A stretch of 28,516 bases of DNA from a virus, in the IMG/VR virus record IMGVR_UViG_3300032268_000376, positions 1 to 28,516 of that record, one strand, 5' to 3'. The notes beneath the pieces were generated by a model. It saw nothing but the letters and a program-made list of their open reading frames with translations, did not search any database and had not been told where the DNA came from. Position numbers and translations under genes: made by a program. Of this stretch, positions 12,691-21,692 are shown piece after piece (position 1 is the first letter of the stretch; each line of letters starts with the position of its first letter).

Positions 12691-13530
12691 ATGAAAGATT
12701 TGATAATTGGTGGTGCCAGTAACTATGACTGGAATGTTTTAAAGTATTGGGTTAACTCAATCAATAAATCAGGATTTGAAGGCGATAAAGTCCTGATCCT
12801 AATGAATTGCGACAAAGATACGGTAAAAAAAGTTTCTGATGCCGGTTTTAAAGTCGTAGGTTTCCAACAAGATTCCCAAGGTAATCTAACTTATCCACAA
12901 ACAGGTCGAGCACCGCATGTGGAAAGATTTCTGCACATCTATAATTTACTTTCACAGAACGAATATCGGTATGTTGTTACTACCGATGTGAAAGATGTTG
13001 TCTTTCAACAAAATCCAATTGATTACATGGAAAAAGCTTTAACAGACGATAAAAATCTAATGTTTGCTTCTGAAAGCATGTATTACAAAGATGAACCATG
13101 GGGCAACGAAAATCTGCTTCAAACTTTTGGTGAATTCATTTACAGTAAATTTAAAGACAATGAAATTTATAATGTGGGTGTTCTTGCTGGTCGTGGTCAT
13201 GCTGTTCGTGATTTGATTTGTAATATCTTTGTTTCTACACAAGGCAAACCAATTCCTATTTGTGACCAATCCACATTTAACTTTATGATTTCAATGTCGC
13301 CATATAAAGAAACCTCGGTGTATTTGCGGTCAGAAGATGCTTGGGCTGCACAACTTGGTACAACAGGAGACCCAACAAAGATTGAACAATTCAGACCATT
13401 TTTAATTGAAGCCGAGCCAAAAATAAATGATGATATTGTTACAACATCTACCGGGATACCCTTTACAATTGTTCATCAATATGATAGAATTCCTAATTGG
13501 AAAAAAATATTAGAGGCAAAATATGGCTAA
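12691..13530 (+). CDS. Glycosyltransferase-like protein (GT-A fold, DxxD motif)
   Basis: A 279-aa protein with a Rossmann-like N terminus ('K-D-L-I-I-G-G-A-S-N-Y') and a sugar-nucleotide/metal motif 'Y-V-V-T-T-D-V-K-D-V-V-F-Q' around Asp99 and Asp102. 'V-V-x-T-D-V-x-D-V-x-F-Q' is the signature of a family of eukaryotic-type and phage glycosyltransferase-like proteins. Later 'N-V-G-V-L-A-G' (about 161-167) and 'C-D-Q-S-T-F-N-F' (190-197) fit acceptor-site elements. It has its own ribosome-binding site (GGGGT, 12682-12686) and opens the eight-gene island. Its 3' end overlaps the next gene by 8 nt. Likely role: transferring a sugar or cyclitol made by the island onto a phage or host polymer. Donor and acceptor unknown. 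Confidence 0.72.
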   Translation: MKDLIIGGASNYDWNVLKYWVNSINKSGFEGDKVLILMNCDKDTVKKVSDAGFKVVGFQQDSQGNLTYPQTGRAPHVERFLHIYNLLSQNEYRYVVTTDVKDVVFQQNPIDYMEKALTDDKNLMFASESMYYKDEPWGNENLLQTFGEFIYSKFKDNEIYNVGVLAGRGHAVRDLICNIFVSTQGKPIPICDQSTFNFMISMSPYKETSVYLRSEDAWAAQLGTTGDPTKIEQFRPFLIEAEPKINDDIVTTSTGIPFTIVHQYDRIPNWKKILEAKYG

Positions 13531-14233
13531 AATTGCATTATGTATTACAGGTCAACCTCGTTGTGTAGAAAAAGGATATGAATACCATAAACAAAACATC
13601 ATTAACAATAATGATGTAACTGTTTTTATACACACATGGGAATCACCAGAAACAAAAAAAGCTTTTGAACTTTATAAGCCTGAAGCGATGATGGTTGAAG
13701 AACCGATTAATCCAGACTTATCAAAATATACAAGAGTTCCTCCACCGCAACCTAATTGGAAAGTAAAAAATCCAGCATTATCAACATATGCACAGTTATA
13801 TGCTATTAAAAAATGTAATGAATTAAAAACCATTTATGAAGAAGAAAACTCTATTACTTTCGATTGGGTCATACGTTCTCGTTTTGATTTTGCTATCAAT
13901 GCTACAATACCTTTTACTGAATTGGACAATAGTAAACTTTATATTCCAAATTGTCGCATGACACCACAAAGAGATTTTGGTAACGATCAATTTGCTTTTT
14001 CATCGTCAGAAAATATGAACAAATATGCAAAGGCTTTTGATTTTATTGATTATCACTATGATCGTGGTACGCAAATGATGTGTGAAGATTTGATGAGTGA
14101 AAATTGGAAACATTTTAATATGGTTGGAGAAAACTTGGTTTATTGTAATATTGAACATCCATTTCCACCAGGCCCTTACAATGGCACATGGCATTCTTTA
14201 TTGCGTGAGGATTTTGAACAATGGGCTCGTTAA
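13523..14233 (+). CDS. Second glycosyltransferase-like protein (GQPR family)
   Basis: A 236-aa protein beginning 'I-A-L-C-I-T-G-Q-P-R', the N-terminal signature of a group of phage and bacterial glycosyltransferase-like proteins. It continues with 'V-F-I-H-T-W' (34-39) and 'D-W-V-I-R-S-R-F-D-F' (114-123), where R-x-R-x-D is the conserved nucleotide-sugar site of that group. 'G-N-D-Q-F-A-F-S-S' then matches the substrate-side loop. The end is rich in Pro and aromatic residues. It overlaps the first glycosyltransferase by 8 nt and the nucleotidylyltransferase by 13 nt, so the three are one translational unit. With two transferases side by side, more than one residue or acceptor may be involved. 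Confidence 0.65.
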   Translation: MAKIALCITGQPRCVEKGYEYHKQNIINNNDVTVFIHTWESPETKKAFELYKPEAMMVEEPINPDLSKYTRVPPPQPNWKVKNPALSTYAQLYAIKKCNELKTIYEEENSITFDWVIRSRFDFAINATIPFTELDNSKLYIPNCRMTPQRDFGNDQFAFSSSENMNKYAKAFDFIDYHYDRGTQMMCEDLMSENWKHFNMVGENLVYCNIEHPFPPGPYNGTWHSLLREDFEQWAR

Positions 14234-14961
14234 TTATTTGCATGGCTGGTCTAAACACCAGATTTCATGATGTTGGTTTTGATATGCCAAAATATTTGTT
14301 ACCTTGGCGTGGCAGCTGCATCATTCATTCAATTATTAATGAATTTCAAACAAGACATAAATTCACAAACATTATATTATTAGCAAACAAAAGAGATTTA
14401 TATTTTAGAAAAAGTTTAGTTGACGCAATTAAACATATTGGTTTAGACGAAACTAATATTCACTATATCGGAGATACAAACGGTCAGGCACATACTGCAT
14501 ACATTGGTTCTACTATCGCAAAAAGTAATGAACCAATTTTTGTTCACAATGCAGACACACATTTAACATTTAGAAATTTTAATCACATCATAGAAATGTT
14601 AAAAACAGCCGATGCTTTTGTTGATGTGTTTATTGCAAATAATCCTAAGTATTCTTATGTAAAGAAAGAAGGAGATAGGGTCATAGAAATTGTAGAAAAG
14701 AATCCTATTTCTCCTTTTGCAAGTTCTGGTTTGTATTGTTTTAAGACGGCTGAAATGTATCAAGAATACTTCAACAAATTACAAAAAGATTTTACCAAAT
14801 CAGAAATGTATATCGCTGATGTTTTAGCACTCATGTTGAATGATAGAAAACTTATTGTAACAAATGAATTGAACAACCGAGAAGAAACTATTGTTCTTGG
14901 TTCACCACAAGAATATGGATTAGAAATAGCAAAATGGTCGATAGTAGGCAGACAAAACTAA
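14221..14961 (+). CDS. Sugar-1-phosphate nucleotidylyltransferase
   Basis: A 246-aa nucleotidyltransferase of the RmlA/GlmU-like NTP_transferase fold. The signature loop is 'C-M-A-G-L-N-T-R-F' (7-15), in which Gly-Thr-Arg has become N-T-R, followed by the conserved lysine in 'D-M-P-K-Y-L-L-P' (Lys24). The uridine/purine loop is 'G-D-T-N-G-Q-A-H-T-A' (84-93), and the metal-binding strand is 'F-V-H-N-A-D-T' (Asp112). 'S-S-G-L-Y-C-F-K' near residues 168-175 is the typical sugar-side strand. The reaction class is NTP + sugar (or cyclitol) 1-phosphate to NDP-sugar + PPi. Next to a kinase and a sugar-phosphate cyclase it could make the activated donor, as ValB does for valienol-1-phosphate; that substrate is inference. 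Start at 14221 keeps the first beta strand intact. Confidence 0.85.
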   Translation: MGSLIICMAGLNTRFHDVGFDMPKYLLPWRGSCIIHSIINEFQTRHKFTNIILLANKRDLYFRKSLVDAIKHIGLDETNIHYIGDTNGQAHTAYIGSTIAKSNEPIFVHNADTHLTFRNFNHIIEMLKTADAFVDVFIANNPKYSYVKKEGDRVIEIVEKNPISPFASSGLYCFKTAEMYQEYFNKLQKDFTKSEMYIADVLALMLNDRKLIVTNELNNREETIVLGSPQEYGLEIAKWSIVGRQN

Positions 14962-15908
14962 AAGGCGGTTCATTAAGTTCAACATACTTAATTGAACAGG
15001 ACAATAAGAAATTCATAAGAAAAACTGTATCTCTAAAAGAAAATAGAGAATACGGTTATGTTCGTTGGTATTCTCAACTAAAAAAACTTCAAAGATATAG
15101 CACAGAATTTCCTAGATTGTTTCCAAAAGTATTGAATGTGTCTTATGAAAAAGATGATGCATACTTTGATTTACAATACATGGATGGTTATTCTGACCTA
15201 TACACCATTTTTTCTGGTCGTGATTTGTCTGAGCATGAATTAAAGAAAATTAATCACGCTTTATGGAATGCTTTTAAAGAACTGCATCGTATTGATTATG
15301 TGCCAAATTCTGGTGCAGCTTTACTTTATTTTAAAGAAGAAGTTGAACAAAAACTCATCGATGCAAATAAGTTCATTGAGTTTAATAAATTCTATTGTCA
15401 TGGAACGTATGAATTAAATGGTGAAATTGTTCATGGCATTACTAATTTTATGGATGAATTACGAAACTTTTTTTCAGAAATGAATTTGATTAATGAGGAA
15501 TGTATTCATGGCAATCCAACATTAGAAAATACTTTATATTCTTTTGTTGATGATATGATTGTATTTGTTGACCCATATGAAGAAAGTATTATTGACAGTA
15601 GGTTTTTAGATTATTCGATGGTGTTACAAAGCTCACACAGCTTATACGAACATTTTAATAGTCAAACAATTAATGTAGAAGATTCTAAAGTTTGGTGTAA
15701 TGCTAATCAACCGTCAGATAATTTTAGAAAGTTCAATGAATTGTTCACTTCTGAATTGATAGAATCAAGAACAAATAAAATTGTAGAGGTTTTAGAAGCA
15801 ACACAATTCATTCGTATGTTGCCATTTAAGTGTGCAGCTGGTAACTATGATCACGCTAAGTATTTTTATCTTCACGCTTGTAACCTATTTAATAAAATTT
15901 TCGTATGA
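14934..15908 (+). CDS. APH/choline-kinase-like small-molecule kinase, catalytic-loop Asp replaced by Asn
   Basis: A 324-aa protein of the aminoglycoside-phosphotransferase/choline-kinase superfamily. The N-lobe shows 'G-S-L-S-S-T-Y-L-I' (glycine loop, 12-20) and the ATP lysine in 'K-F-I-R-K-T-V' (26-32). The catalytic loop is 'E-C-I-H-G-N-P-T-L-E-N-T-L' (189-201) and the metal motif 'V-F-V-D-P-Y' with Asp213. In the family the loop reads H-G-D-x-x-x-x-N. Here residue 194 is Asn (codon AAT) instead of the catalytic Asp (GAT), while Asn199 is kept; activity is therefore uncertain. Related proteins occur in capsule and cyclitol clusters as sugar or cyclitol kinases. It overlaps the nucleotidylyltransferase by 28 nt and the cyclase by ATGA, so it belongs to the same pathway unit. 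Confidence 0.72.
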   Translation: MVDSRQTKLKGGSLSSTYLIEQDNKKFIRKTVSLKENREYGYVRWYSQLKKLQRYSTEFPRLFPKVLNVSYEKDDAYFDLQYMDGYSDLYTIFSGRDLSEHELKKINHALWNAFKELHRIDYVPNSGAALLYFKEEVEQKLIDANKFIEFNKFYCHGTYELNGEIVHGITNFMDELRNFFSEMNLINEECIHGNPTLENTLYSFVDDMIVFVDPYEESIIDSRFLDYSMVLQSSHSLYEHFNSQTINVEDSKVWCNANQPSDNFRKFNELFTSELIESRTNKIVEVLEATQFIRMLPFKCAAGNYDHAKYFYLHACNLFNKIFV

Positions 15909-17038
15909 ATGATTTATTAGTCGATTTTAACAATTCAAAAAGAACTTGGCAAGTTAGTGCTACTTTGCCTGTATCTTTTACAATTCACTATTCAAACAAT
16001 ATATTTGATCCAACCAATCATGATTTATTGTCCTATGGAACAGGTGACCGTAGAATTGTTGTGGTAGATAAGAATGTTTATAAATTATATTCTGAAAAAA
16101 TATCAAATTACTTTAAAACTCTAAAGATTGATTGTCGTTTGTATATTATTGATGCAACTGAAGCTAATAAGGATTGGCAACATACTAACGAAATATTGAA
16201 ATTTTTTGAAGATGAAGGCGTTCTACGCCGAGAGCCAATAATTGTAATTGGCGGCGGTGTTTTACTTGATTTGGTTGGTTTTTGTTGTAGTATCTACCGC
16301 CGAGGTATTCCATACATCAAGATACCAACAACTCTTTTAGCCATTGTAGATGCTTCAGTTGGTGTAAAAGTAGCTGCAAATCATTTTGAAAGACGCAATC
16401 GCATTGGTGCATATTATCCACCAATTGCTACTCTCATAGATAAAAAGTTTATTAAAACACAAGACGAGAGAGAAATTATAAACGGGATTGCAGAAATTTT
16501 TAAACTTGCAGTTATTAAATCTGAAGAATTATTTGTATTATTGGAAGAAAATTATGATCAACTTATCAATGAGAAGTTTCAGTTTGGTGCTGTTCCTGTT
16601 CGTGTTATTAATCTTGCCATTTCTGGTATGATTGATGAATTAGCACCAAATCTATGGGAGAAAAAGCTAGACCGTTGTGTAGATTATGGCCACACTTTTA
16701 GTCCAATTATAGAAATGGCAAATATACCAAACTTATTACACGGCGAAGCGGTTGTGTTGGATTGTTTATTTTCTGCTTGCATTTCGTATAGCCGTGGGCA
16801 TATCAATAGAGAAATCGCCAAGCGCATTTTCAATGTTGCAGGAAAGTTAAGATTGCCTACTTTCCATAACGATTTTACCAATATTGACTTGCTTAAAAAG
16901 TCATTATCTGATACAATGAAGCATCGCAACGGTAATCAATATATTCCTATACCAATTGGTATTGGCAATTATAAATTTATAAACGATTTGACTGACAAAG
17001 ACATAGAAAAAGCAATAGCAATTTTTGAAGAATTATGA
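15905..17038 (+). CDS. Sedoheptulose-7-phosphate-cyclase-like sugar phosphate cyclase (EEVS/DHQS superfamily)
   Basis: A 377-aa NAD- and metal-dependent sugar phosphate cyclase. The NAD loop is 'V-I-G-G-G-V-L-L-D-L-V-G' (G116-G118, Asp122). 'I-P-T-T-L-L-A-I-V-D-A-S-V-G-V-K' (140-155) is the conserved core. Metal ligands are expected at Glu197 ('N-G-I-A-E-I-F-K'), His263 and His279 ('L-L-H-G-E-A-V'). Dehydroquinate synthase reads 'L-N-x-G-H-T-x-G-H-A-I-E'. This protein reads 'V-D-Y-G-H-T-F-S-P-I-I-E-M' (259-271), plus 'R-I-G-A-Y-Y-P-P' (166-173), the pattern of 2-epi-5-epi-valiolone, epi-valiolone and desmethyl-4-deoxygadusol synthases that cyclise sedoheptulose-7-phosphate. Which product is made cannot be read by eye. 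ATGA overlaps couple it to the kinase and the reductase. It is the key enzyme of the island. Confidence 0.82.
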   Translation: MNDLLVDFNNSKRTWQVSATLPVSFTIHYSNNIFDPTNHDLLSYGTGDRRIVVVDKNVYKLYSEKISNYFKTLKIDCRLYIIDATEANKDWQHTNEILKFFEDEGVLRREPIIVIGGGVLLDLVGFCCSIYRRGIPYIKIPTTLLAIVDASVGVKVAANHFERRNRIGAYYPPIATLIDKKFIKTQDEREIINGIAEIFKLAVIKSEELFVLLEENYDQLINEKFQFGAVPVRVINLAISGMIDELAPNLWEKKLDRCVDYGHTFSPIIEMANIPNLLHGEAVVLDCLFSACISYSRGHINREIAKRIFNVAGKLRLPTFHNDFTNIDLLKKSLSDTMKHRNGNQYIPIPIGIGNYKFINDLTDKDIEKAIAIFEEL

Positions 17039-17703
17039 AAACAGCATTTATAACTGGAACAACAAGTGGTTTAGGCCTAGAAATCGCAAAACATCTAATC
17101 TCAATTGGTTGGAAAGTTTATGGTATGTCTAGAACTTCTTCAGTTATTAGACACCATTATTATCGTCATTTAGAATGTGATATTACTAATCCTGATTTAA
17201 TTAAAGTTTTAGTTCAGTATGATGTTAAAGATAAAATTGATTTATTAATTAATAACTCAGCTGATTTTGAATATATCGACTTTGAAAATACAGAATTAAA
17301 TATAATCGATAGAATTATTGACACTAATTTGAAGGGGTCAATTTATGTCACCAAATATCTGTTGCCTTTAATGAAAGAACCAAGTAGAATAATCTTCATC
17401 AATTCTGTAGCAGGTTTAGAAGAATTGGAAAATCAATCTATTTACTGTGCTTCAAAACATGGACTTACTGGATTTGCTGGTGTATTAAGTAAAGAATTAC
17501 AGAAAAGAAAAATAAAAGTGACAAGCATTCATCCTGGAGGCATTAATACTCCATTATGGAGTGGTTCTGATTTTCACGATGATTTGACAAAACTTTTAGA
17601 TCCAAAAGAAATTGCTAAACTTATTGCATTTATTTGTGATAGTCAGCAAAATGTGGAATATAAAACAATTAAACTTTTTCCGGATATAGAATGGCATCAA
17701 TAA
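17035..17703 (+). CDS. Short-chain dehydrogenase/reductase
   Basis: A 222-aa classical SDR. The cofactor loop T-G-T-T-S-G-L-G is at 8-15, and an acidic 'C-D-I-T' (48-51) sits at the adenine-side position. 'L-I-N-N-S-A' (75-80) is the N-N-A-G-like motif. Catalytic Ser is in 'I-N-S-V-A-G' (about 121-126) and Tyr/Lys in 'Y-C-A-S-K' (about 136-140). 'H-P-G-G-I-N-T-P-L' is the expected post-catalytic loop. It oxidises or reduces a hydroxyl/keto group with NAD(P). Following the cyclase by an ATGA overlap, it is the natural candidate to reduce the ketone of the cyclitol product, as reductases do in C7-cyclitol pathways; the substrate is inferred from position. All catalytic residues are present. Confidence 0.85.
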   Translation: MKTAFITGTTSGLGLEIAKHLISIGWKVYGMSRTSSVIRHHYYRHLECDITNPDLIKVLVQYDVKDKIDLLINNSADFEYIDFENTELNIIDRIIDTNLKGSIYVTKYLLPLMKEPSRIIFINSVAGLEELENQSIYCASKHGLTGFAGVLSKELQKRKIKVTSIHPGGINTPLWSGSDFHDDLTKLLDPKEIAKLIAFICDSQQNVEYKTIKLFPDIEWHQ

Positions 17704-18404
17704 TACCAACTAGAAATTTATTCATCATCACTTCAGCTTTAAATGCTAAAATTGGCGTAGTTGGAGAAAAAGAACGATTAGAACAAACTATTGCAACATT
17801 GGATAATCTTAGAGATAAAGTTCCTGATGCTGCTGTTCTTTTTGTTGATGGTTCACCTGAAAATGTACCTAAAGAAACAAAAGAGTTGATTGGTAAATAC
17901 TGTCAAGCTCTTTGGTTTACTAGCCATCCCGAAATTAAATCTTTTGCACTAGCAGGTAGAAAAAGTGAAGCTGAACTTTTGCTGTTATTGAACACACTTA
18001 TACAATTCAAAAACAATCCCGAATTGATGGGTTTCTTACACGGAGTTAAAAGAATATTTAAGTTTTCTGCAAGATCATTGTTAGAAGAAGATTTTGATAT
18101 TACTGAATATAATAATAAATTTGGCAAATATGTTTTTAAAAAATCTTTGCCTTCATGGATGTCACCAGAAAGAAAAACAAGCATTACTGACCATCTGTAC
18201 ATCACACGATTGTTTTCTTTTTGTCCATCTCTGTTAGACAATTATTTGCAGACAATAGGGCCAATGATAAGTAATGTTATGTCACATGGCATTGACACGG
18301 AACACGCACATTATTTGTGCTTAGATAAAAAACATGTTGTTGAATTTGATAGAATAAAATGTGCTGGTATTGTTGCTGGCTCAGGTGAAACGGAGAGATA
18401 CTAA
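17691..18404 (+). CDS. Glycan-associated protein, possible glycosyltransferase
   Basis: A 237-aa soluble protein I cannot place firmly. It begins with a strand 'N-L-F-I-I-T-S-A-L-N-A-K-I-G' and a helix 'E-R-L-E-Q-T-I-A-T-L-D-N-L-R'. The strand 'A-A-V-L-F-V-D-G-S-P-E' follows. Further on, 'K-R-I-F-K-F-S-A-R-S-L-L-E-E-D-F' and 'K-Y-V-F-K-K' recall a block 'K-x-(S/T)-G-R-Y-x-L' in some capsule-associated glycosyltransferase-like proteins. 'D-T-E-H-A-H-Y' near the end could be an active-site or structural motif. It overlaps the SDR by 13 nt and the methyltransferase by TAATG, so it is part of the island. A third transferase, or an enzyme acting on the activated product, would fit. Confidence in the gene is high, in the role low. 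Confidence 0.55.
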   Translation: MASIIPTRNLFIITSALNAKIGVVGEKERLEQTIATLDNLRDKVPDAAVLFVDGSPENVPKETKELIGKYCQALWFTSHPEIKSFALAGRKSEAELLLLLNTLIQFKNNPELMGFLHGVKRIFKFSARSLLEEDFDITEYNNKFGKYVFKKSLPSWMSPERKTSITDHLYITRLFSFCPSLLDNYLQTIGPMISNVMSHGIDTEHAHYLCLDKKHVVEFDRIKCAGIVAGSGETERY

Positions 18405-19111
18405 TGGAATTGTGGAACTATTTTACAACCAATAAAGGTAAGAAGATTACAAAATGGAAACACTATTTTCCAATTTATGAAAAACATTTTACGCCTATTC
18501 GTAATAAACCAATTAAGATGTTAGAGATTGGTATTCTAAATGGCGGTTCTTTGGAAATGTGGCGTTATTATTTTCCAGAAGCCACGATTGTTGGTATTGA
18601 TATTAATCCATTGTGTAAAGAACATGAACAAGAAGGTATCAATATTCGAATTGGCGATCAAACAGACGAAAAGTTTTTACAGAGTTTAATTGATGAATTT
18701 GGCACATTTGATTTAATTATCGATGATGGGTCACACCATGTTGCTCATGTAAATAAAACATTTCAATTTTTATTTCCAAAATTGGCAGATGAAGGCATTT
18801 ACTTCATTGAAGATACTCATGCAGCATATTGGGATTCTCATGGTGGAAGTATTAAAGAACCAGAATCTATTAATAATGTCGCAAAAGGCATGATTGATAG
18901 TATCAATGCAGATCATGCTAGAGGCCAGAAAGAGCCTGATTATTTCACTCGTAATGTTAAATGTATGTCTGTGTACGATTCTATCATTGTTTTTGATAAA
19001 GGCAATGTTGGCGAAAAGATTCCTATGGAGATAGGAATGTCAAGAATAGTCATGCAACCAGACTCAGTTCCTAAAATCAATGAGGGTTGGGTGTCATTTA
19101 GAACTGATTAA
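18404..19111 (+). CDS. SAM-dependent O-methyltransferase (MycE/TylF-like)
   Basis: A 235-aa class I methyltransferase. The SAM loop is 'M-L-E-I-G-I-L-N-G-G-S-L-E-M-W' (39-53), the acidic ribose site 'V-G-I-D-I-N' (63-68), and the catalytic/metal motif 'L-I-I-D-D-G-S-H-H' (104-112). 'E-D-T-H-A-A-Y-W' (136-143) follows. This set (L-E-I-G-x-x-x-G-G-S, D-D-G-S-H-H, E-D-x-x-x-x-Y-W) is typical of macrocin/mycinamicin-type sugar O-methyltransferases and relatives in polysaccharide clusters, which methylate sugar hydroxyls with Mg2+. It closes the island; its stop lies only 4 nt before a late-promoter element. It would cap or decorate the transferred sugar or cyclitol; the acceptor is unknown. Confidence 0.82.
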   Translation: MELWNYFTTNKGKKITKWKHYFPIYEKHFTPIRNKPIKMLEIGILNGGSLEMWRYYFPEATIVGIDINPLCKEHEQEGINIRIGDQTDEKFLQSLIDEFGTFDLIIDDGSHHVAHVNKTFQFLFPKLADEGIYFIEDTHAAYWDSHGGSIKEPESINNVAKGMIDSINADHARGQKEPDYFTRNVKCMSVYDSIIVFDKGNVGEKIPMEIGMSRIVMQPDSVPKINEGWVSFRTD

Positions 19112-19114
19112 AGA

Positions 19115-19122
19115 TATAAATA
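19115..19122 (+). promoter_or_regulatory. T4-type late promoter (exact TATAAATA)
   Basis: TATAAATA is identical to the T4 late -10 element read by RNA polymerase with gp55. It lies just after the island's last stop codon, with no -35 element expected. Start of transcription would be about 19128, leaving a roughly 30-nt leader with ribosome-binding site CGGGAG (19148-19153) before the ATG at 19158. The downstream genes look like capsid and cargo genes, fitting late timing. The box-to-ATG distance (36 nt) is almost the same as at 26088 (34 nt). Confidence 0.78.
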
Positions 19123-19157: not shown

Positions 19158-21692
19158 ATGAAATTTAGCGATTTTCTGCTAGAGCAGAAAGAAAAACATG
19201 CAGTAATGGCCTTTGGGCGTATGAACCCAATCACAGTTGGCCATGAAAAACTTGTCAACAAGGTACAAGAAATTGCCAAAAAAGTTGGTGGTTCTGCACA
19301 TATCGTTGTTTCGCACTCACAAGATCCAAAGAAAAATCCTCTTTCTCCCGCACAAAAATTAAAGCACGCCAAACGTGCTTTTCCTGGCGTCAATGTATCT
19401 GCATCTGACGCATCTGCACCAAATTTTCTAGCACAAGCCGCAAAATTACACAAACAAGGTGTAACACATTTCCACATGGTTGGCGGTTCAGACCGTGCCG
19501 AAGAATATCACAAACTTCTCCACAAATACAACGGCGTAAAAGGTCCACACGGTTCTTTTAATTTCAAACACATTGAAGTTCATTCAGCTGGTGAGCGTGA
19601 TCCAGATGCCGAAGGTGTAGAAGGTATGTCAGCAAGTAAAATGCGTGAGCATGCTTCAAATGGCAATTACAAAGAATTTCGCAAAGGTGTTCCTTCAGCG
19701 ATGACTGATGCTCATGCAAAAGAAATGTTTAACCATGTTCGCAAAGGCATGGGAATGAACGAAGATGTAAACGAAGATTTCCAAGAATTGCTTATTGAAG
19801 GTGTGCATGATAAGGCCATTTTTAAAGCAGTTTTTCTTGCAGGCGGTCCTGGTTCTGGTAAAGATTATGTTCTTAGCAATACACTCGATGGCCATGGCCT
19901 CACAGAAATTAATTCAGATAAAGCATTAGAGTTTTTGATGGACAAAGAAGGCCTTGATAAAACAATGCCTGAATCAGAAAAAGAAAAACGTGATACGGTT
20001 CGTGGCAAAGCCAAAAATATGACCGAGTTGCGCCAGCGTTTAGCACTAATGGGTCGTAATGGTCTTATTATTAATGGTACAGGTGATGACCATGAAAAGA
20101 TTGGTCGTATTAAAGACCGTTTAGAAGAAATTGGCTACGATACTTCAATGATTATGGTTAATACTGATAATGAAGTATCAGCACAAAGAAATGTTGAAAG
20201 AGGACAAAGAGGCGGCAGAACTGTACCAGAAGATATTCGCCGACAAAAATGGGAAGCAGTACAAAACGCAAGACCAGAATTAGCAAAAATGTTTGGTGAC
20301 CGTTATGTTGAATTTGATAACTCAGAAGATTTAAGAACTGCTTCACCTGATGTTGTTAAATCTAAAAAAGATGAAATGACAGAGTTGTTTAAAAATGTCC
20401 AACAATTTGTAGCAGAGCCACCAAAATCAGAAGCAGCATCATTGTGGGTAGCACACGAATTAGATTTGTCTGATAAATTGCCAGTGCCAAAAGAAGGTGC
20501 TGAGCAAGCGCCTCATGCCGATTCTGCTGCAGCTGAAGAAGCCCGCAAGATGGGATTACAGTATTATGGTTTTGGTCGTTATGGTCGTAATGGCAAAGTA
20601 ACACATCGTTCAATACACGATAAATTGGTAGAAGTTCAAAGAGAAGAGCCTCAGCAACCAAATATTCCTGTATCAGGTTCATCTGGTACACCAAAGAAAG
20701 GTGTCAATGAAGAATTTGAAGAAGTGTTCACCGAAGATTTGCGCCAATGGTTTGATCCAAAACATCCAAAAGGTGGATGGAAAAGAATCAACAGCAAAGG
20801 CGAAGCAATTGGCCCATGTGCTCGTGAACCAGGCGAAGCAAAACCAAAATGCATGTCAAATGAAAAGCGTGCTAAATTGAGTAAAAAAGAACGAGCATCT
20901 GCTGTTTCTGCCAAACGCCGACATGATCCAGATCCAGAGCGTAAAGGTGCACCAATTAATGTATCTAACTTTGGCAAAGGTAAATTATCTGAATCATATC
21001 AGTTGTCTGATTCTTCATCGTTAAACCTTTTGTTGCTTGGTACCCGAATCGATGAAATTGAATTAGAAGAAGAAAAGAAAAAAGAAATTAAACTTCTAAA
21101 AGATAAAAGTGGTAAAGTAAGAACATTTATGCTTCGTGCCGCAGCTGCAAGAGAAGCACATACAAGTAATGGTACAGTCATGCCCTATAAAAATGGCTAT
21201 GTTATTAAAATAAATGAGGAGAATGAAGATGTTGAATCTAATCAAAAACCTTTTTGGCAAATCAGAGAGTCAAACTCATCCGCTAGACGGATCAACCAGA
21301 GTAGCACAGGAGAGAGCAGACAACTTATCTCAGAAGGTTACACCGAGCTCACCAGCGCCAACGAGTACGCCAAAGGCACCGGCATTGAAATCCAAGGCAC
21401 CAACAAAGAAACCCCAACCCCAAAAATCACGCTCGGGCAAATCCGCTCCCGCCAAAAAGAAAAAGTAAAAGAATCAATTGACAAAGGCATTGAACCTGGT
21501 TTATCTTTGTCGGCAGGTGGAGAAAATGCACAAAGGCCGTCATTGAAAACAAAACAGAATAAAAAACCATTTGAAGAAGCAATTGGTGCTGGTGGTGAAG
21601 ATGCTACATCAATGAGTGATTTTAATGATAATGTATTGAAACAAAAAGGTATCAACATTAAAACATTTAAAGCAAAGAGGCCAATAGGATGA
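19158..21692 (+). CDS. 844-aa multidomain capsid-cargo candidate: nucleotidyltransferase + zeta-toxin-like kinase + DUF5872-like
   Basis: Residues 1-10 (M-K-F-S-D-F-L-L-E-Q) resemble a T4 capsid-targeting sequence ending in L-x-E. Residues 14-195 are a cytidylyltransferase-fold domain: 'F-G-R-M-N-P-I-T-V-G-H' (T-x-G-H, 26-29) and 'S-A-S-K-M-R' (158-163), as in NMN adenylyltransferases. An internal copy of the targeting-like motif, 'N-E-D-F-Q-E-L-L-I-E' (205-214), precedes a P-loop kinase with Walker A G-G-P-G-S-G-K-D (229-236), zeta-toxin-like. Another copy, 'N-E-E-F-E-E-V-F-T-E' (517-526), precedes a DUF5872-like domain ('L-R-Q-W-F-D-P' to 'A-K-R-R-H-D-P'). The tail (about 630-844) is charged and unassigned. 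It looks like several cargo proteins joined with protease sites between. Bases 21229-21468 are also open in another frame with their own ribosome-binding site. Transcribed from the late promoter at 19115. Confidence 0.8.
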   Translation: MKFSDFLLEQKEKHAVMAFGRMNPITVGHEKLVNKVQEIAKKVGGSAHIVVSHSQDPKKNPLSPAQKLKHAKRAFPGVNVSASDASAPNFLAQAAKLHKQGVTHFHMVGGSDRAEEYHKLLHKYNGVKGPHGSFNFKHIEVHSAGERDPDAEGVEGMSASKMREHASNGNYKEFRKGVPSAMTDAHAKEMFNHVRKGMGMNEDVNEDFQELLIEGVHDKAIFKAVFLAGGPGSGKDYVLSNTLDGHGLTEINSDKALEFLMDKEGLDKTMPESEKEKRDTVRGKAKNMTELRQRLALMGRNGLIINGTGDDHEKIGRIKDRLEEIGYDTSMIMVNTDNEVSAQRNVERGQRGGRTVPEDIRRQKWEAVQNARPELAKMFGDRYVEFDNSEDLRTASPDVVKSKKDEMTELFKNVQQFVAEPPKSEAASLWVAHELDLSDKLPVPKEGAEQAPHADSAAAEEARKMGLQYYGFGRYGRNGKVTHRSIHDKLVEVQREEPQQPNIPVSGSSGTPKKGVNEEFEEVFTEDLRQWFDPKHPKGGWKRINSKGEAIGPCAREPGEAKPKCMSNEKRAKLSKKERASAVSAKRRHDPDPERKGAPINVSNFGKGKLSESYQLSDSSSLNLLLLGTRIDEIELEEEKKKEIKLLKDKSGKVRTFMLRAAAAREAHTSNGTVMPYKNGYVIKINEENEDVESNQKPFWQIRESNSSARRINQSSTGESRQLISEGYTELTSANEYAKGTGIEIQGTNKETPTPKITLGQIRSRQKEKVKESIDKGIEPGLSLSAGGENAQRPSLKTKQNKKPFEEAIGAGGEDATSMSDFNDNVLKQKGINIKTFKAKRPIG
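21217..21221 (+). promoter_or_regulatory. Ribosome-binding site inside the 844-aa gene
   Basis: AGGAG at 21217-21221, 7 nt before an ATG at 21229 in another frame. It is as strong as the sites of recognised late genes in this window (23360-23364, 26117-26121). Its sequence must also encode E-E in the 844-aa protein, so chance is possible, but spacing is ideal. Confidence 0.55.
21229..21468 (+). CDS. Overprinted small basic Pro/Ala/Lys-rich protein (frame-shifted within the 844-aa gene)
   Basis: A 79-aa ORF in another frame, wholly inside the 844-aa gene. The N terminus, M-L-N-L-I-K-N-L-F-G-K, is an amphipathic helix. Then comes a low-complexity, strongly basic tail rich in P, A, K, S and T, ending A-P-A-K-K-K-K. 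Histone-H1-like tails of this kind bind nucleic acid, but here that is inference. In favour: a well-spaced AGGAG, a composition typical of a real basic tail, and a C-rich, GC-higher patch unlike the flanks on either side. Against: the long frame stays open throughout and is clearly coding before and after. Either both frames are used, or a foreign gene was inserted in frame. The start is 21229, not 21214 or 21223, from the ribosome-binding-site spacing. Confidence 0.45.
   Translation: MLNLIKNLFGKSESQTHPLDGSTRVAQERADNLSQKVTPSSPAPTSTPKAPALKSKAPTKKPQPQKSRSGKSAPAKKKK

Follow-up and report, generated by a model that had tools for sequence, protein, structure and literature searches.

Most of what is known about C7-cyclitols comes from bacterial natural products, such as acarbose and validamycin, that contain them as building blocks; their chemistry has mostly been found in antibiotic-type pathways of soil bacteria. 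Here, we analyzed a window of 28,516 nucleotides from a virus (positions 1 to 28,516 of IMG/VR record IMGVR_UViG_3300032268_000376), a 28.5 kb piece of the genome of an uncultured T4-like phage, which carries an island of eight genes (named A to H; positions 12691-19111). Judging from their sequences, four of these genes (C, D, E and F) form a cassette that in uncultured T4-like phages from water very probably turns a common seven-carbon sugar phosphate into an activated C7-cyclitol, a carbocyclic mimic of a sugar, and the neighboring glycosyltransferase-like genes probably attach this cyclitol to an acceptor.

The closest described systems share parts of this design. In the acarbose and validamycin pathways (AcbC-AcbM-AcbO-AcbL-AcbN-AcbU-AcbJ-AcbR; PMC9200736), a cyclase, a ketoreductase, a kinase and a nucleotidylyltransferase lead to a nucleoside diphosphate (NDP)-cyclitol, and the logic of cyclase, kinase and nucleotidylyltransferase has been established for acarbose (PMC9200736). 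At the level of families and motifs, the phage island contains the corresponding 2-epi-5-epi-valiolone synthase (EEVS), ketoreductase and nucleotidylyltransferase; its candidate cyclitol kinase has an APH (aminoglycoside phosphotransferase) fold in the structure model, but an HGN catalytic loop. The phage unit differs from the acarbose and validamycin systems in having only four enzymes and an APH-fold kinase, and no epimerase, dehydratase, phosphatase or GT-B pseudoglycosyltransferase was detected with Pfam and NCBIfam among the eight island proteins. The EEVS ValA, which is the nearest solved relative of E, has the metal ligands and the EEVS fingerprint in common with it, whereas E lies on a separate branch of phages and Prochlorococcus, is phage-borne and is not part of an antibiotic gene cluster. 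The cytidine diphosphate (CDP)-6-glucitol pathway of the Campylobacter HS:5 capsule likewise combines nucleotidyl activation with reduction of a non-glycosidic polyol, which ends as glucitol phosphate in the capsular surface polymer; however, it has no cyclase, its polyol is open-chain and its nucleotidylyltransferase acts before the reductase (PMC10918830). Finally, picocyanobacterial fusions of a nucleotidylyltransferase and an APH kinase (L120-L124) contain the same two domains as C and D in one protein, but their loop reads HGD rather than HGN and they have no known linkage to a cyclase.

The four core genes of the phage unit are as follows.

14221..14961, + strand: gene C (core gene 1), sugar/cyclitol-phosphate nucleotidylyltransferase by family (PF00483 NTP_transferase, 2.3e-11, above cut-off)
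14934..15908, + strand: gene D (core gene 2), APH-fold small-molecule kinase (structure model and fold match; catalytic loop HGNPTLEN)
15905..17038, + strand: gene E (core gene 3), predicted sedoheptulose-7-phosphate cyclase of EEVS type (ValA match, metal ligands, fingerprint, tree)
17035..17703, + strand: gene F (core gene 4), short-chain dehydrogenase/reductase (SDR), a predicted ketoreductase (PF00106, 1e-36; invariant N98, S124, Y137 and K141)

A scan of viral contigs identified 46 cyclase loci (24 clusters at 95% identity of E). The search for gene order in related phages, which the preliminary description of this island had called for, gave a uniform picture: C-D-E-F were contiguous and in the same order in 40 out of 40 contigs spanning all four genes, with a median junction of -4 bp and mostly 4-base overlaps, and this linkage is not due to chance. 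Five loci (L015 and its near-copy L016, L021, L027 and L040) had unrelated surroundings in which the frame of A, B and G was missing; L027 contained only weak B-like proteins, and the cassette of L021 had no recognized glycosyltransferase beside it. Since C-D-E-F stayed contiguous even there, these four genes are the functional unit, which is narrower than the eight genes to which a cyclitol pathway had originally been ascribed. No relatives of D or E of the cyclase-linked kind could be found in 50,697 records of named phages, where tblastn with E gave only weak matches resembling dehydroquinate synthase (DHQS), some of them from records listed as phage that are bacterial or lack annotation, and D matched only gp311 of Bacillus phage G (24%). 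In the literature searched (subscription literature was outside the search), there was no paper linking valiolone or cyclitol chemistry to a phage and none on a cyclitol route in Prochlorococcus; the initial statement, likewise, had been that no described phage pathway of this kind was known.

E matches the N and C parts of the Pfam family DHQ_synthase (7e-35 and 4e-21), and its score against the aroB equivalog model (215.8 bits) is under the cut-off of 305. A PDB search with E returned ValA (4p53, EEVS) at 308 bits, Anabaena desmethyl-4-deoxygadusol synthase (DDGS; 5tpr) at 233 and the best DHQS at 130. The signature VDYGHTFSPIIEM, which had been singled out as unlike that of DHQS, is located at residues 259-271, where DHQS rows indeed carry L-N-[YF]-G-H. 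All three metal ligands (E197, H263 and H279) are intact in E and invariant in phages and Prochlorococcus; those of ValA are E213, H284 and H300 in our own mapping, with numbers inferred from the 4p53 chain (offset 6). It has been reported that two fingerprint positions separate EEVS from DDGS (PMC4426668). In an alignment of 83 cyclases, the EEVS fingerprint (ValA D281/H360) corresponds to D260/H340 in E and is invariant across phages and Prochlorococcus; DDGS rows have Ala/Thr at these positions (L117 and 5tpr served as A/T controls), a pair that is absent from E, and DHQS rows have Asn and Val/Asn/Ala. The DDGS-type row L117 turned up by chance in Rhodococcus ruber IEGM 1391, whose genome holds an EEVS-type cyclase, a DDGS-type cyclase and aroB together.

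Phylogenetic analysis gave a consistent result. In a maximum-likelihood tree, 14 phage cyclases formed one clade (100/99) with Prochlorococcus as its sister (100/98), both within the non-DHQS side, and DHQS and DDGS were each split off with 100/100. The exact place of E among EEVS is not claimed because some branches (ValA, DHQS) are long; this tree, built from references other than 2-epi-valiolone synthase (EVS) and 2-deoxy-scyllo-inosose synthase, puts E on the EEVS side without fixing its position relative to ValA. Thus, E has an EEVS-type sequence and is not a DHQS, as the preliminary description had proposed in calling it a C7-type cyclase. Two outcomes would have spoken against that description, a cyclase grouping firmly with DHQS or another non-C7 clade and a lack of linkage to its partners in related phages, and neither was found: the cyclase is of C7 type and its linkage to kinase, nucleotidylyltransferase and reductase is unbroken.

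The three other core enzymes were then compared with their relatives. The best solved relative of C is an NDP-sugar pyrophosphorylase (4evw, 2.4e-31), and its signature motifs are conserved across 20 sequences, including Prochlorococcus; F keeps the invariant SDR tetrad N-S-Y-K. The early label 'APH-like' for D finds little support in sequence (Pkinase 0.05; APH at best 0.0068 among members) and good support in structure, as the confident model (predicted local distance difference test, pLDDT, 93.6) matches the folds of methylthioribose kinase and of aminoglycoside kinases, APH(2''). Residues K30, N194, N199 and D213 are invariant in D, and its catalytic loop (window 15507-15530, residues 192-199) contains Asn (N194) where APH relatives have the catalytic Asp. 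In other picocyanobacteria, nucleotidylyltransferase fusions contain relatives of D as a C-terminal or internal domain, which ties the kinase to nucleotidyl transfer and supports a chemistry in which D is followed by C.

The closest cellular cyclases (46-47%) were found in two Prochlorococcus single-cell genomes. In both, C-D-E occur in the same order inside surface-glycan islands (L052:2-13963 and L054:1-10345), and an aldo/keto reductase takes the place of the SDR after them; the occurrence of two unrelated reductase folds in one slot argues for a ketone reduction step. The surroundings in L052 include a cytidylyltransferase as well as glycosyltransferase- and methyltransferase-like surface-glycan genes, the latter recognized by eye from translations, and both genomes hold a separate ordinary aroB. 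The cassette is rare in cyanobacteria: among several hundred cyanobacterial genomes only these two contained the cyclase-linked kind of D, and the cyclase was present in 1 out of 41 genomes of one Prochlorococcus genus.

The remaining four genes of the island form a frame around the core.

12691..13530, + strand: gene A (frame gene), glycosyltransferase-like, weak (GT_PLOD 4e-4, below cut-off; phrog_1579 glycosyltransferase, 8.9e-6)
13523..14233, + strand: gene B (frame gene), DUF7796-like, putative glycosyltransferase-like (DUF7796 1.5e-5, below cut-off; phrog_13607, a phrog without known function, 2.2e-26)
17691..18404, + strand: gene G (frame gene), GT-A-fold putative glycosyltransferase (model pLDDT 87.5; GT6/GT8 folds)
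18404..19111, + strand: gene H (frame gene), MycE-like sugar O-methyltransferase (class I methyltransferase; nearest solved relative 3ssm, MycE)

All eight open reading frames lie on the same strand, and the genes, first described as mostly overlapping, in fact overlap at all seven junctions (1-28 bases). PDB sequence searches with G and A gave no match. G belongs to no family by sequence, and its model has a GT-A fold that matches alpha-1,3-GalT and glycogenin (E about 3e-6). The nearest solved relatives of H are the sugar O-methyltransferases MycE (3ssm, 3.8e-37) and demethylmacrocin O-methyltransferase (8ia9, 2.3e-31). Therefore, the first assignments of C, F and H as nucleotidylyltransferase, SDR and O-methyltransferase stand, and the looser description of A, B and G as glycosyltransferase-like or glycan-related is supported for G by its model, is weak for A and comes down to a DUF7796-like protein for B.

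A second scan, with the left-flanking gene as query, revealed sister phages in which the flanks as well as A, B, G and H have been kept and the slot of C-D-E-F is filled by an APH-like kinase (HGD) and another nucleotidylyltransferase. No cyclase is present in these cassettes; some, such as that of L128 (HGD kinase at L128 14376-15119), add a 4,6-dehydratase and an epimerase and thus specify a different donor sugar, and L165 likewise has a non-cyclitol sugar cassette in the same place. Donor modules are exchangeable at this locus, a glycan hotspot. Because the frame also surrounds non-cyclitol cassettes, only C-D-E-F of the supposed eight-gene pathway are specific to the cyclitol, and O-methylation of the cyclitol itself, which had been considered possible, is not implied. 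Another sister phage has a radical SAM and a methyltransferase-like protein at this hotspot where the sugar cassette would be (L187:5886-8356). Some phages with the cyclitol cassette carry further enzymes after G: at L005:8852-12667, these are of the DegT-family, epimerase-like and 2-oxoglutarate (2OG)-Fe(II) oxygenase kinds, which points to another unusual sugar in this glycan, and L005 also has a 4,6-dehydratase-like protein.

On the basis of these results, we consider it fairly probable that C-D-E-F is a mobile four-enzyme donor module that makes an NDP-C7-cyclitol, which the frame transferases would pass to a phage-controlled glycan. The pathway that we infer, including its reactions, step order, product stereochemistry, nucleotide and acceptor, builds on the EEVS-type sequence of E, the preserved catalytic motifs of E and F, the likewise preserved signature motifs of C, the kinase fold of D, the linkage of the four genes and the swapping of cassettes. 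E would cyclize sedoheptulose 7-phosphate of the host, with loss of the phosphate, to 2-epi-5-epi-valiolone or a close stereoisomer; F would reduce the ring ketone to an alcohol; D would phosphorylate a hydroxyl, probably at C1; and C would join the cyclitol phosphate to a nucleoside triphosphate. This order (cyclization, reduction, phosphorylation and nucleotidylation) is expected because of the established acarbose chemistry (PMC9200736). Cytosolic transferases (A, G and perhaps B) would then move the cyclitol unit onto the phage-controlled glycan, in which H may O-methylate some component. Since neither an epimerase nor a dehydratase turned up in the island, a saturated NDP-cyclitol would be expected, and, with a GT-B pseudoglycosyltransferase undetected as well, product and transfer need not copy the acarbose and validamycin pathways. 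Known pseudoglycosyltransferases act on unsaturated valienol (PMC9200736). Without a ring oxygen or an allylic system, a saturated cyclitol would donate poorly in glycosyl transfer, which makes transfer of cyclitol phosphate, as with CDP-polyols such as the CDP-glucitol that supplies the Campylobacter capsule (PMC10918830), a serious alternative that appears at least as likely as pseudo-glycosyl transfer.

With regard to the acceptor, no convincing membrane helix was found in the eight island proteins, the sole hydrophobic stretch in E being located in the cyclase core; hence the acceptor is expected to be encountered in the cytosol. Genes for a lipid carrier or for polymer export were not seen within the island. 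PF00303, the thymidylate synthase family with the hydroxymethylase on which T4-style DNA glucosylation depends, was absent from four frame-bearing records of 133-162 kb, which are possibly incomplete, and this disfavors glycosylation of hydroxymethylcytosine-type DNA. Among the three targets first suggested (virion, DNA and host surface), DNA therefore seems the least likely; a virion protein or the host surface is the favored acceptor.

Several observations weigh against this pathway, namely the undetected enzymes mentioned above, the fact that E cannot be told apart as EEVS or EVS with the references used, and the catalytic loop of D, which is HGN in 16 out of 16 cyclase-linked kinases (one LGN row being counted as HGN) versus HGD in 19 out of 19 relatives, such that D might be weak, unusual or inactive. 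One alternative is that E, though a sugar phosphate cyclase, forms 2-epi-valiolone or a stereoisomer not yet described, or uses a different heptose phosphate, so that the activated cyclitol would be a different one. The distinct branch of phages and Prochlorococcus, for which ValA is only the nearest characterized relative, and a comparison set without an EVS reference are compatible with this; however, E keeps residues, D260 and H340 among them, that the EEVS-side rows share and DHQS lacks, and we regard another product as unlikely, if well worth bearing in mind. Slightly less probable still is that D is a pseudokinase, so that the cassette would make a free or host-phosphorylated cyclitol and C would have another substrate. 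The uniform HGN loop is what such a protein might show, but K30, N199 and D213 are invariant, the D gene is never lost or separated in the loci, and relatives of D are fused to nucleotidylyltransferases. Production of gadusol or a mycosporine-like sunscreen by the cyclase and the O-methyltransferase H is very improbable: although EEVS and MT-Ox make gadusol in fish (PMC4426668), E does not have the DDGS fingerprint, no ATP-grasp protein was detected in the island with Pfam or NCBIfam, H resembles the sugar O-methyltransferase MycE and occurs also in phages without the cyclase, and a kinase and a nucleotidylyltransferase would be superfluous. That E is a phage DHQS boosting the shikimate pathway of the host, as its Pfam label and the aroB that annotation pipelines would probably assign might imply, is the most improbable of all and is refuted by the subthreshold aroB score, the position outside the DHQS clade, the replaced DHQS residues, the linkage to nucleotidylyltransferase, kinase and SDR, and the lack of any other shikimate gene near E.

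Around the island, the window encodes a DNA polymerase, UvsX, a DnaB-type helicase and virion structural proteins. Its gp43 is ∼51% identical to those of Synechococcus cyanomyoviruses, the nearest phages. The cyanophage markers psbA and transaldolase were absent from 15 and 14 records of island relatives, respectively; thus, the host is not assignable as a cyanobacterium in spite of the gp43 similarity. The gene at 19158-21692 is the constant right border of the hotspot and encodes an 844-aa protein with a cytidylyltransferase-like N-terminus and a zeta-toxin/AAA_33-like kinase domain. One exact TATAAATA at 19115 was discarded as a late promoter because 1.45 occurrences are expected by chance, and scans for sigma-70 promoters and terminators showed no excess over shuffles. 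In the replication region, a rubrerythrin gene (862-1302; PF02915, 3e-27) lies close to a dCMP deaminase gene (272-712).

Taken at the sequence level, the novelty would consist of known cyclase chemistry in a new minimal pathway and a new biological setting, with an unusual kinase. Such cassettes are easily overlooked, since family annotation would label E as aroB, and contigs with islands of glycosyltransferases, nucleotidyltransferases and kinases were removed from a major marine study of metabolic genes carried by viruses (PMC11360552). We tentatively suggest, as a possibility and not as the expected outcome, that these phages run a minimal, self-contained four-enzyme cyclitol activation with a noncanonical HGN kinase and place a carbocyclic pseudo-sugar, probably in the form of cyclitol phosphate, on their virions or on the surface of the host, the cassette being one of several interchangeable donor modules of one hotspot; as a component of glycans, such a pseudo-sugar would be new to viruses. 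If the cassette does activate a cyclitol, this phage-borne and independently inherited route would represent a new phage building block and a very small pathway of its kind, and may be a source of new kinds of kinase and nucleotidylyltransferase parts. The hotspot itself provides a testable system for the exchange of surface-sugar modules among phages.

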